Origin: Acidobacteriota bacterium
Lineage (GTDB): Bacteria; Acidobacteriota; Terriglobia; Terriglobales; Acidobacteriaceae
Assembly: GCA_003225595.1 (NCBI GenBank)
Contig: QIAR01000218.1
Location: 1 to 43,050 of the forward strand
Reading direction: 5' to 3'
Length of the DNA stretch: 43,050 bases
Shown: positions 37,547-42,614 of the stretch, in pieces
Numbering within the stretch: the stretch's first letter is position 1
How the letters are laid out: every line of letters begins with the position of its first letter
The notes under the pieces: generated by a model
The model's input: only the letters and a program-made list of their open reading frames with translations
What the model was told of the DNA's origin: nothing
Databases searched by the model: none
Made by a program: the position numbers and the translations under genes

Positions 37547-38815
37547 CTATTCGTACCGCAGGCAGACGATGGGATCGAGGTTGGCCGCCAGATTGGCGGG
37601 ATAATAACCGAAGAACAAGCCCACGCCGACGGAGATCGCGAACCCAATCGAGACCCATAGGTAAGAGAGCGTTGCCGGAATTGAAGGCACGAAAGTGCGC
37701 ACTAGAGTGGACACGCAGGCCCCGATCAGAATGCCGATGGTGCCGCCGACCAGCGTGAGGACCACCGCTTCAAGCAAGAACTGCAGACGGACATCCGCGC
37801 GCCGGGCGCCGATGGCCTTGCGCACGCCAATTTCCTGCGTGCGCTCGGTCACGGAAATGAGCATGATATTCATCACGCCGATGCCGCCCACCAGCAGTCC
37901 TACGGAACTGATCACAGTTGTGAGTATGACCAGTGCGCCCGTGAGTTGATTCCACAAATTGCTGATGAAATCCGGCGAGCTCACCTCGAAATCATTTTCC
38001 GCAGCAGCAGGGACACGGCGCAGGCGACGCATCGCCTGAATGACCTCGTCCTGCGCCTTTTCGATTTTGATGTTCTCCGGCACGGTGAAGGCCATGATCA
38101 GTTCTTTGGCTTCCGGGTATCGCTTCTTGAAGTTGCTGAGCGGGATGATGGCGAATACGTCCACCCCTGGACCGATGAACAGACCCTGGTCATGCTCAAA
38201 GACGCCGATGACCTCATAGAGCCCGCCATTGATGCGCACCGTTTTGCCGATGGCATCTGTGTAGGGGAAGAGCGATTCGCTAATGGCCGCGCCCAAAACC
38301 ACGACGGGACGCGCGTGCTCCTGATCGAACGCGCTGATGAAGCGGCCGCGCTCGACGGCGAATAACGGAATCGCTTCCGTGTACTGTGGTTCAGCGCCGC
38401 GCACGATGACCTTCTCGACGCTACGGTCGCCGCTGGTGATCAGGTTGGTGTCCCCGAAGAAAAAGCCGCGCGTGCCGACTGTGGTGACGATCTGCACGTC
38501 GGGAGCCGCCCGGCGGATGAAGTCCGCGTAATTATATTCAAAATACTTGCGGGTGCGAATGCGTTGCGGCCAGCGCGAAGGGTCGGTGCCCGGCGGAAAT
38601 CGCGAGATGAAGTAAGTGCGCGAGCCCAGGGATTCCACTTTGTCCTGCACGAACTTATTCAATCCCTGAATGATTGACGCCATGGAAATCACTGAGGACA
38701 CCCCGATGACAATGCCGATCACGGTCAATGCGGAGCGTACCTTGCTGGTGCGCAGCGTTTCCATCGCGGAGTAGAAGTTTTCCCGGGCTTGAGACGGTTT
38801 CATGATCGCCATCAC
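37547..38815 (-). CDS. ABC transporter permease (MacB/FtsX type)
   Basis: ENFYSAMETLRTSKVRSALTVIGIVIGVSSVISMASIIQG...GGIGVMNIMLISVTERTQEIGVRKAIGARRADVRLQFLLEAVVLTLVGGTIGI. Confidence 0.95.
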   Translation of the reverse strand: MMAIMKPSQARENFYSAMETLRTSKVRSALTVIGIVIGVSSVISMASIIQGLNKFVQDKVESLGSRTYFISRFPPGTDPSRWPQRIRTRKYFEYNYADFIRRAAPDVQIVTTVGTRGFFFGDTNLITSGDRSVEKVIVRGAEPQYTEAIPLFAVERGRFISAFDQEHARPVVVLGAAISESLFPYTDAIGKTVRINGGLYEVIGVFEHDQGLFIGPGVDVFAIIPLSNFKKRYPEAKELIMAFTVPENIKIEKAQDEVIQAMRRLRRVPAAAENDFEVSSPDFISNLWNQLTGALVILTTVISSVGLLVGGIGVMNIMLISVTERTQEIGVRKAIGARRADVRLQFLLEAVVLTLVGGTIGILIGACVSTLVRTFVPSIPATLSYLWVSIGFAISVGVGLFFGYYPANLAANLDPIVCLRYE

Positions 38816-40032
38816 TCAGACCTCAAAGCGACGATCGGGTCCAGCCGTGAAGCGCGTACCGCGGGATAGATTCCAAAAAACAATCCGACCGCGGAACTCA
38901 GGAACACTCCCAATACTGCCACCCAGGTCTGCACTGAGGCGGGAAAGGGGGTATAGGTTCGCAGCCCCAGAGCGACCAGAAATCCGAGCGTGATGCCCAC
39001 CAGCCCTCCGGCCATACATTGCATGACGCTTTCCGTCATGAATTGCCGCAGGATGTCAAGCTTGGTCGCGCCCACCGCCCGCCTGACGCCGATCTCCCTC
39101 CGCCGCCCGGTCACGCTTACCAGCATGACATTCATGATCACGATGCCGCCGACGACAATCGAGATCGCGCTCACCATAATGAACACGGCAAAAAATGCCG
39201 AGCTGATGCTGCGCCACAATGCCATGTAACTTTCCTTGGTCCCGATGAAGAAGTCGTCATCCATTTTGCCCGTGAGGTGGCGCCGCCCGCGCAAGATGAG
39301 CTGTGCCTGGTCCTGAGCTCGCACAAAATTCTCGGGGCTCGTCTTGACGTTGATGATGAGGCTGGTGTGTGCGCCTCGCATGCGCAAGAAAACCGAGAGC
39401 GGCACCATGACGAAATTGTCCTGATCCTGGCCGAGAACGCTGCCGACCTTCTCCACGGTACCGAGCACCCTAAACTCGTCGCTGCCGACGCGAATGGTCT
39501 TGCCGATGGGGTCCACGCCGAGAAACAACCGCTGCACGAGCGTGTCGCCAATCAGGCAGACATTGGCGCTGTGTTCGGCTTCGGCTGGGGTGAAGTAGCG
39601 GCCGAGCTCGACGGTGCGCGTGTCAATGTCGGCCATAGTTGCCGTTTGACCGGAGAGGTTAACGTCCTGCACCTCGTTGTCGCCATATCGTGCGCGGACG
39701 GTAGTGCTGGCGCTGGCCCCGACCTGTTCGCATGCGGCGCATTTATCGGCTATGGCCCTCATGTCGTCGAGCTCAATCTTCTTGTACTTCAGCGCCTTGA
39801 TGATGATGTTGAAGTCGGTCACCGCGAAGGGAGTGCGCGCGAGCTGAAAGACATTGGTGCCGAGGTTGGCGATCTTCTGTTCCACATAAACATTCGCGCC
39901 CTGCACGATGGTCATGACTGTGATGAGGGTGGCAACACCCATCGTCAGCCCCAGCATAGTGAGTGAGGCGCGCATCTTGTGTGCGCGCAATGCACTGAAG
40001 CATTGGGCAAGATTGTCGCGGACGGCAAGCAT
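38812..40032 (-). CDS. ABC transporter permease (MacB/FtsX type)
   Basis: DNLAQCFSALRAHKMRASLTMLGLTMGVATLITVMTIVQG...GGIVIMNVMLVSVTGRRREIGVRRAVGATKLDILRQFM; ATGA overlap with the next permease. Confidence 0.95.
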   Translation of the reverse strand: MLAVRDNLAQCFSALRAHKMRASLTMLGLTMGVATLITVMTIVQGANVYVEQKIANLGTNVFQLARTPFAVTDFNIIIKALKYKKIELDDMRAIADKCAACEQVGASASTTVRARYGDNEVQDVNLSGQTATMADIDTRTVELGRYFTPAEAEHSANVCLIGDTLVQRLFLGVDPIGKTIRVGSDEFRVLGTVEKVGSVLGQDQDNFVMVPLSVFLRMRGAHTSLIINVKTSPENFVRAQDQAQLILRGRRHLTGKMDDDFFIGTKESYMALWRSISSAFFAVFIMVSAISIVVGGIVIMNVMLVSVTGRRREIGVRRAVGATKLDILRQFMTESVMQCMAGGLVGITLGFLVALGLRTYTPFPASVQTWVAVLGVFLSSAVGLFFGIYPAVRASRLDPIVALRSE

Positions 40033-40552: not shown

Positions 40553-40575
40553 AAGTGATTGGTTTTCAATCACTT
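40553..40575. promoter_or_regulatory. Perfect inverted repeat upstream of the S8 peptidase
   Basis: AAGTGATTG-GTTTT-CAATCACTT (9-bp arms, 5-nt spacer). Confidence 0.5.
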
Positions 40576-40691
40576 ACAAAATCCCGATTTATGGTACCCG
40601 CGGTGCAATAGTAATCGACGAATGTATGCGGCCCTGAGATCTTTGCCGCCGCTCTGTCCGAGTGAAAGAGAGCTGTTCGGAGAAGGAGACA

Positions 40692-42445
40692 ATGCTTACC
40701 CAACTTTGCAGTTACAGGGGAAACAGAAAAATCAAACGCAGCGCCATCTCAGACATGCGCCCCGCCGTTCTGCTCCTGCTGCTGCTAACGGCGTCTCCTC
40801 GAAGATGTCGAAGGACCTGCAGGCGGTGCCCTCCGGCACGACAGTAAATGTGGTGGTGCAGTATTACAACCCGCCGACGACTACCGACGTGAATGCTGCC
40901 AAGGGGGTGGGAGCCAGCAATGGCAAGGCGTTTGGACTGGTCAAGGGATACCGTTGGACCATGTCCCAGGGCAACGTGCCCAGCCTCATCAGCAAGGATT
41001 CCAACATCAAGTACATTTCGCTGGATCGCCCGCTGAAGAGCGCGATGAACTACGCGGTTCCGGCCGTGGGGGCTGACATTGCCCGCAGCTTGGGCTATGA
41101 CGGCACGGGCGTGGGCGTCGCCGTAATCGACAGCGGAGTGAACTCCGTTTTTGACTTGACGCAAGCGGGCAGCAGCAAGACGAGCCGCATTGTTTACAGC
41201 CAGAACTTCGATCCTTCTGCCAATACCACCAACGACCTTTACGGCCACGGCACGCACGTTGCGGGCATCATCGCCGGCAACGGAGGCAGCTCCTCTTGCG
41301 GTAACTGTGACGTCACGTTCCGGGGTATCGCCCCCAACGCCAACATCATCAACCTGCGGGCGCTTGACCAGAACGGTTCGGCCACCGACAGCACCGTTAT
41401 TGCGGCCATTCAGCAAGCCATTGCCCTGAAGAGCCAGTACAACATCGGGGTGATCAATCTTTCGTTGGGCCGTGGCGTTTTTGAGAGCTACACCCTCGAT
41501 CCCTTGGACCAAGCGGTGGAACAGGCTTGGAATGCGGGCATCGTAGTGGTGGTGGCCGCGGGCAACTATGGCCGAGACAACTCGAGCAACAATTCCGGCT
41601 ACGGAACGATAACCGCGCCTGGCAATGATCCCTACGTAATCACGGTGGGCGCAATGAAGACGATGGAGACGGCGTCGCGCGCCGATGACCTGATCGCCAC
41701 CTACAGTTCGAAAGGCCCGACCATGCTGGACCATGTGGTTAAGCCTGACTTGGTGGCGCCCGGTAACCTGATCGCATCTGATCTGGCCTCAACTGCGGAC
41801 ACGCTCTACAGCGCGTACCCGACGAACCTAATTCCTATTGCGGACTACACCACTTCCAACAACAGCAACACTTCTTCCACCTACTACCGTTTGAGCGGCA
41901 CCAGCATGGCCGCCCCGATGGTGAGCGGAGCGGTCGCGCTGTTGTTGCAGCAGAATCCCTCCTTGACACCGGACCAGGTGAAGGCGCGGTTGATGAAGAC
42001 CGCGTACAAGGTCTTCCCGGCATACGGTTCGTACACCGATCCGACAACGGGAATCACATACACCTCTCAGTACGACGTCTTCACCGTCGGCGCAGGCTAT
42101 CTCGACATCGCAGCAGCCTTAAACAACACCGACGTGGCCCCCGCAACGGCGGGTAGCGCCATGTCTCCAACGGCTGCCTATGATTCCACGACCGGCACGG
42201 TATACCTGGTCAACGGGTCGTCGGTCGTGTGGGGCACCTCAGTCATGTGGGGTAGTTCGGTTGTGTGGGGCACCTCGGTCATCTGGGGTACCAATATGGC
42301 TGGGCAGTCGGTCCTTTGGGGCAATTCGGTCTGCTGGGGCACAAGTACGAACAGTGGCTTCAGCGTCATCTGGGGCACCAGCGTGATCTGGGGTACTAAG
42401 ACCAACTCTGATGCCATGACAGTCGCCATCGGCGGTGACAAATAA
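40692..42445 (+). CDS. Secreted S8 subtilisin-like serine peptidase with C-terminal VxWG hexapeptide array (apparent frameshift between signal peptide and mature region)
   Basis: Asp motif GVAVIDSGVN, His motif GHGTHVAGIIAGN, Ser motif LSGTSMAAPMVSGAVALLLQ. GGAGAAGGAGACA-ATG start at 40692 encodes MLTQLCSYRGNRKIKRSAISDMRPAVLLLLLLTA in a different frame from the protease domain (protease-frame ORF 40559..42445). Confidence 0.85.
42218..42397 (+). repeat. Eight V-x-W-G hexapeptide units (18-bp coding repeats)
   Basis: SSVVWGT SVMWGS SVVWGT SVIWGTNMAGQ SVLWGN SVCWGTSTNSGF SVIWGT SVIWGT. Confidence 0.9.
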
Positions 42446-42509
42446 GGTGCGGCCTACGTTGGCAGGCCGTACGGGTCTCACAAGTGGGAGGATTCGGAAG
42501 GAGGAGGAT

Positions 42510-42614
42510 ATGAAAACGAGCGTACAGAGACTGGCTACAACGATCTTGATGGCGTTGACGGTGGTCTTGATCCTGGTTTCGGTTTCGGCTGCATCTGCGG
42601 TATGGGGCAACTAG
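42510..42614 (+). CDS. 34-aa micro-ORF: signal-peptide-like sequence ending in VWGN
   Basis: AAGGAGGAGGAT-ATG; MKTSVQRLATTILMALTVVLILVSVSAASAVWGN*; AxA cleavage motif (ASA) directly before VWGN. Confidence 0.65.
   Translation: MKTSVQRLATTILMALTVVLILVSVSAASAVWGN

Follow-up and report, generated by a model that had tools for sequence, protein, structure and literature searches.

A family of micropeptides with an invariant ASAVWG[S/N/A] end adjoins WG-tailed subtilase genes in Acidobacteriota

Twenty-three micropeptides from 19 genomes of one Acidobacteriota family make up a previously unnamed and undescribed family of exported peptides, and every one of them abuts a gene for an S8 protease with a VxWG tail. 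They are 33 to 44 amino acids long with one hydrophobic helix each, and were located by scanning the flanks of protease genes and by DNA-pattern scans of genomes. Computation established their conservation, the strict protease adjacency, a sigma-54-type promoter and the invariant ASAVWG[S/N/A] end. The micropeptide very probably works together with the adjoining WG-tailed subtilase; as for the mechanism, we tentatively infer an exported peptide ligand tied to the protease, in an architecture resembling Phr/CSF. The micropeptides have no significant Pfam or NCBIfam match, and our searches of open-licence papers retrieved no report of the micropeptide, of the SAVWGS motif or of peptide quorum sensing in Acidobacteria.

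The stretch analysed (the window, 43,050 nucleotides) makes up all of contig C290, one of 814 contigs in an Acidobacteriota genome assembled from a metagenome and 97% complete. Re-reading of the sequence gave what had first been described, an S8 protease ending in eight VxWG units and followed by a micro-ORF with its Shine-Dalgarno sequence (Table 1). The protease reading frame is open from 40559 to 42445 and belongs to Peptidase_S8 (PF00082, E=2.2e-53); its catalytic D/H/S triad is invariant in an alignment of 37 homologues and most of the catalytic part is modelled confidently by AF2. The protease stop and the AAGGAGGAGGAT-ATG region of the micro-ORF are 64 nt apart. In the source genome, where counts come from pattern searches, GTNTGGGGNAMNTAG (VWG-[N/T]-TAG) matches only once, at the end of the micro-ORF. 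The encoded peptide possesses the full tail, a hydrophobic core and the strongest Shine-Dalgarno sequence of the set, and we regard the micro-ORF as almost certainly a real gene. The order of genes is protease, micro-ORF, MASE9, contig end. The standalone MASE9 protein of L206, to which the truncated last gene was matched, is itself a PF20972 member (E=5.7e-7), and MASE9-like homologues occupy the equivalent place after the proteases of L032, L005, L006 and L042. Between the protease and MASE9 gene of L032 (4635-4820) lies a decayed fragment (SVVRGASTLNSNSAFSDVGDDEQ) that looks like the C-terminal end of another WG subtilase. On its other side, the window protease adjoins two FtsX/MacB-like ABC permease genes (37547-40032, minus strand) where an Opp cluster is usual; the Opp cluster of the source genome is on contig C628. 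In genus g31, several of the loci whose micropeptide lies upstream of the protease (U loci) have an ABC exporter and an HlyD-like protein upstream. The contig start (1-7200) carries flagellar and motility genes (FlgI-like, FliD/FliS-like and MotA/MotB-like, by reading).

Table 1. Features of the protease and micropeptide locus in the window.
Feature	Position	Strand	Basis
Sigma-54-type -24/-12 box, TGGTACCCGCGGTGCA	40592..40607	+	TGG-N9-TGCW upstream of the protease
Protease start, Shine-Dalgarno (GGAGAAGGAGACA-ATG) and signal peptide	40692..40847	+	Translation; alignment with L032, L033 and L005
S8 subtilase body	40811..42445	+	Pfam Peptidase_S8 (E=2.2e-53), alignment of 37 homologues, AF2
WG array, eight V-x-W-G-[TSN] units	42221..42397	+	Read directly; ends the S8 ORF
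Shine-Dalgarno of the micro-ORF, AAGGAGGAGGAT	42498..42509	+	Precedes the ATG
Micro-ORF, 34 amino acids, signal-peptide-like, D type, MKTSVQRLATTILMALTVVLILVSVSAASAVWGN and stop	42510..42614	+	Family of 23 peptides, dN/dS
C-terminal heptapeptide ASAVWGN (family: ASAVWG[S/N/A])	42591..42611	+	U/D comparison, codon variation
MASE9-like membrane protein, cut by the contig end	42683..43050	+	Matched by tblastn to L206's standalone MASE9 protein

The micropeptides fall into two types. Nine D-type peptides (33 to 36 amino acids; the window, G187, G109, G072, G246 and tandem pairs in G325 and G309) are encoded 40 to 250 nt downstream of the protease, and 14 U-type peptides (41 to 44 amino acids) just upstream of it. 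An exact DNA pattern for A[SA]AVWG[S/A/T/P]-stop, built from U-type end codons, gave 14 matches in 398 genomes, more than by chance, the reversed control pattern giving four; a true stop codon follows in 13 of these 14, each of which sits immediately ahead of a gene for a WG-tailed subtilase, a neighbour that in G261 was confirmed by a protease N-terminus at the contig end. WG-tailed S8 proteases themselves occur in 91 of the 298 sampled genomes of the order. A phylum-wide pattern search beyond the family yielded mostly TGG read-through or chance matches, its two best candidates not being micropeptides, and the flanks of micropeptide-less proteases contained no other micropeptide type with a helix and a Shine-Dalgarno sequence. 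In three D peptides (L094/L095 and L110) a lipobox-like cysteine precedes the tail (LAIAC-NASAVWGS, LALAC-SASAVWGS), and these could be lipopeptides.

The original prediction had singled out VWGN as the shared element, which proved too narrow: what is conserved is the heptapeptide, ASAVWG followed by S, N or A in all 23 peptides, one of which has an extra Cys, with a free C-terminus right after WG-x in 22. Between U and D types the last seven residues are 95% identical, against 12% for the 25 residues before them. Four Ala, four Ser, three Val and three Gly codons are in use in the tail; since third codon positions vary freely, conservation at the RNA level was rejected. The terminal serine is encoded by AGY in D peptides and TCN in U peptides, which suggests that the tail may have arisen twice. 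The proposed dN/dS check on the family gave Nei-Gojobori values of 0.05-0.15 in four close pairs of equal length, which indicates purifying selection; most of the more distant pairs gave 0.23-0.59, where the right-alignment of unequal lengths inflates dN. Together with the invariant tail and the adjacency in 23 of 23 cases, this supports the coupling of protease and micropeptide that had been put forward as speculation. The tail stays the same where the array next to it differs, SAVWGS being found beside SVVWGQ or SIIWGN; this constancy points to a single fixed recognition partner and speaks against a tail that simply mimics the array beside it.

The micropeptides, with N-terminal charges and a hydrophobic core (KD 1.7-2.9), resemble Phr/RRNPP propeptides in having an N-terminal export signal ahead of an invariant C-terminal part. 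The AxA site lies 4 to 8 residues past the hydrophobic core in all nine D peptides; the 14 U peptides have 16 to 21 residues there, which makes cleavage by signal peptidase at ASA-V unlikely for the U type. The released VWGN tetrapeptide first envisaged is thus plausible for D peptides and not for U peptides. In the mechanism that we favour, the N-terminal helix would carry the tail across the inner membrane, the D-type tail would be released by signal peptidase and the U-type tail trimmed by the neighbouring protease, and the freed tail would serve as a peptide ligand, to be read out by way of OppBCAD uptake, the c-di-GMP enzymes with MASE9, HD-GYP and GGDEF domains and the sigma54-PilZ activator.

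The genomic context supplies these components. In most sampled genomes the protease shares its locus with a sigma54-AAA-Fis-PilZ activator, a MASE9-HD-GYP-GAF-GGDEF protein (in which PilZ was seen in one Pfam scan), OppB, OppC, OppA, OppD and a standalone MASE9 protein. Micropeptides lie within this set in genera g11, g19, g32 and g83 and in G187. TGG-N9-TGCW, the sigma-54 promoter spacing, was found upstream of 15 of the 16 micropeptide-linked units (0.8 expected) and of 50 of 91 other WG-subtilase genes (4.1 expected), while the reversed pattern and the other strand gave background levels. At 13 of the 14 U loci the box starts 40 to 55 nt before the micropeptide ATG, making the micropeptide the first gene, with the sigma54-PilZ protein encoded nearby as the obvious candidate for an activator. 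Most micropeptide-bearing genomes have an OppA ortholog, whether beside the protease or at another place; at the cut-off used it was missing in G246 and G374, and the OppA of G273 is a distant one. In D loci a cassette of radical SAM/SPASM, ScmC-like and signal-peptidase-like genes lies by Opp (L215 80-2921, L216, L213, L217); radical SAM is present in four loci and the full cassette in three. This is possibly a RiPP cassette, with no precursor found there. Radical SAM orthologs also occur elsewhere in the genomes of G182, G067, G294 and others; maturation of the micropeptides by radical SAM enzymes was rejected, no ortholog at E<=1e-40 being found in the searched U-micropeptide genomes or in G109.

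The invariant free C-terminus borne by variable helices, the fixed tail and the locus of protease, Opp and c-di-GMP genes together favour a Phr-like peptide ligand, Phr propeptides carrying a C-terminal pheromone that is processed by extracellular proteases and re-imported by Opp (PMC11343458). The tandem micropeptide pairs in G325 and G309 also speak for it, as do the sigma-54-type box ahead of 13 of the 14 U peptides and the finding, described below, that a SAxWG motif occurs only in proteases without a micropeptide. Against it, the Opp/c-di-GMP locus is found without a micropeptide in many genomes, the micropeptides of g31 lie apart from Opp, and the OppA of G273 is only distantly related. 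Among the selected neighbours scanned with Pfam and NCBIfam, which comprised the protease, MASE9, HD-GYP-GGDEF, Opp and sigma54-PilZ proteins, there was no TPR receptor.

A different role, which we hold to be rather unlikely, would have the micropeptide as a membrane-tethered docking or nucleating unit, showing one WG unit outside on which the array of the protease would dock or assemble, so that the protease is held at the surface. It stands close behind the peptide ligand because the tightest link of the micropeptide is to the WG protease itself, tighter than to any other gene, and because the tail is identical with a single unit of the array family, with near-perfect (SAVWGS)n arrays in Bryobacterales. 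Moreover, one tail is presented on several anchor types (helix plus stalk, signal-anchor, lipobox-like), and assembled subtilases have a precedent in the Bacillus subtilase Vpr, which forms active fibrils (PMC10657474). Nevertheless, docking sits poorly with a tail that fails to follow a neighbouring array such as SVVWGQ. Columns W480, W509 and W521 of the array are invariant in the alignment and W486, W503 and W527 are at least 90% conserved; the array has no confident AF2 fold, either with 37 homologues or for a near-perfect array of 147 residues, and a PDB sequence search with the WG tail gave no match. The Bryobacterales subtilases concerned (L038 and L040, with about 20 near-perfect SAVWGS units) are without a micropeptide. 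The C-terminus of many WG subtilases is a brief acidic stretch, G-[ED]-x (GEN, GDK, GEQ, GDN), maybe a second sorting signal. A general sorting motif was rejected: in the fetched loci, AAWG followed by charged residues occurred outside WG subtilases only in seemingly random frames.

A related motif, [SG]A[AMVT]WG (SAxWG), appears within the proteases themselves, typically as RHSAAWGKRLS just ahead of the hydrophobic core of the signal peptide. It was found in the signal-peptide n-region of 28 of 92 micropeptide-less proteases and in none of 16 micropeptide-linked ones (Fisher p=0.010), and at the Opp locus, read by hand, in 9 of 14 versus 0 of 10 (p=0.002), both p-values being optimistic as the rows are phylogenetically related. 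Shuffled N-termini never contained the motif. It is possible, if on balance doubtful, that these Gram-negative soil bacteria have a new protease-micropeptide system in which one fixed SAxWG recognition element comes in cis, within the signal peptide of the protease, or in trans, as a sigma-54-driven exported micropeptide, and that secretion of the WG protease is thereby coupled to c-di-GMP signalling. The cis motif lies on the cytoplasmic side, while the micropeptide tail is expected outside; this difference counts against docking and against the peptide ligand alike.

The proteases from which micropeptides are absent bear on a further explanation. When 109 protease catalytic domains were placed in a tree, ten of the U-linked proteases grouped in a clade whose members all bear micropeptides (SH-aLRT 99), and the four D-linked proteases other than that of the window grouped in a second (SH-aLRT 99); a second-copy protease of G109 labelled U is the gene downstream of the D peptide and does not count independently. 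The window protease is a third, isolated case. Conservation beside homologous proteases, the check first put forward, holds for the family of 23 and fails for the nearest orthologs, L032 (87% identical), L033 and L005, which have no micro-ORF. These three absences are what one would expect if the window copy were a non-functional leftover, a micropeptide moved beside a broken protease in a lineage with no need of it. In the window the signal peptide read from the ATG at 40692 is not in frame with the protease body, about 13 nt being missing at about 40790-40805, near the cleavage region, relative to L032, either a pseudogenising change or an assembly error, and decaying fragments occupy the equivalent spot in L032. 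We consider a leftover improbable, since the intact tail, core and ribosome-binding site of the window peptide speak against it. Furthermore, the n-region of the window protease reads SAISDMR where L032 has SAAWGKR, so that the cis motif kept in L032, L033 and L005 is lost, the pattern expected if the peptide replaces it. The window may thus represent a recent cis-to-trans swap, or simply a decaying protease.

Less probable still is a regulatory leader peptide, in which the next gene would be controlled through translation of the micro-ORF, a Trp lying two codons ahead of its end. The conserved residues do stop exactly at the stop codon, the U peptides come first after the sigma-54-type box, and every micro-ORF precedes another gene (protease, sigma54-PilZ or MASE9). 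These downstream genes, however, are not alike between the types, the conserved hydrophobic helix and Shine-Dalgarno sequence resemble those of a protein that is made and exported, and the tail recurs elsewhere in mid-protein as the cis motif; no Rfam regulatory element, c-di-GMP riboswitches included, was found near the micro-ORFs in 18 searched loci. A type I toxin, considered for the small hydrophobic size, is disfavoured by the invariant tail and the fixed protease neighbour.

If the micropeptide is indeed a peptide ligand, peptide signalling in one of the most abundant soil phyla would be tied to c-di-GMP and sigma-54, and a single locus would often encode precursor, protease, importer and regulators. 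Whatever the mechanism, the window's 34-residue gene, too small for normal annotation, leads to a clean set of overlooked micro-ORFs that share an invariant seven-residue end, and to a testable cis/trans swap in which a short motif is found either in the signal peptide of the protease or in a micropeptide encoded on its own.

In Bacillota, signalling by peptides that are exported, cut by extracellular proteases and taken up again is well established (Phr/PapR). The Phr, PapR and NprX propeptides of RRNPP quorum sensing are of similar scale to the 33 to 44 residues here and likewise have an N-terminal export sequence and an active C-terminal part that stays constant, together with duplicated peptides and a locus that encodes both a secreted subtilase and Opp. 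In contrast to them, the micropeptides belong to a different phylum and to a c-di-GMP/sigma-54 context, have no RRNPP receptor among the selected scanned neighbours, and share one tail between genera without pherotype divergence, a tail that is moreover the repeat unit of the neighbouring protease family. In the enterococcal sex pheromones, derived from lipoprotein signal peptides, a short peptide likewise comes last in a signal sequence, and the lipobox-like Cys of some D peptides recalls them; the micropeptide, however, is a dedicated micro-ORF with nothing past the tail and no lipoprotein. CsgB-type nucleators of curli and Vpr fibrils share with our system a short-repeat unit in the small partner of a secreted protein, but here it is a single seven-residue unit on a membrane helix and assembly is only putative. 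Finally, arrest and leader peptides of the SecM/TnaC type are similar in being short ORFs with a conserved C-terminus by the stop codon, first in the transcript as in the U type, and differ in that the D type lies downstream of the protease and the helix is adjacent to the tail, so that it would still be inside the ribosome tunnel.
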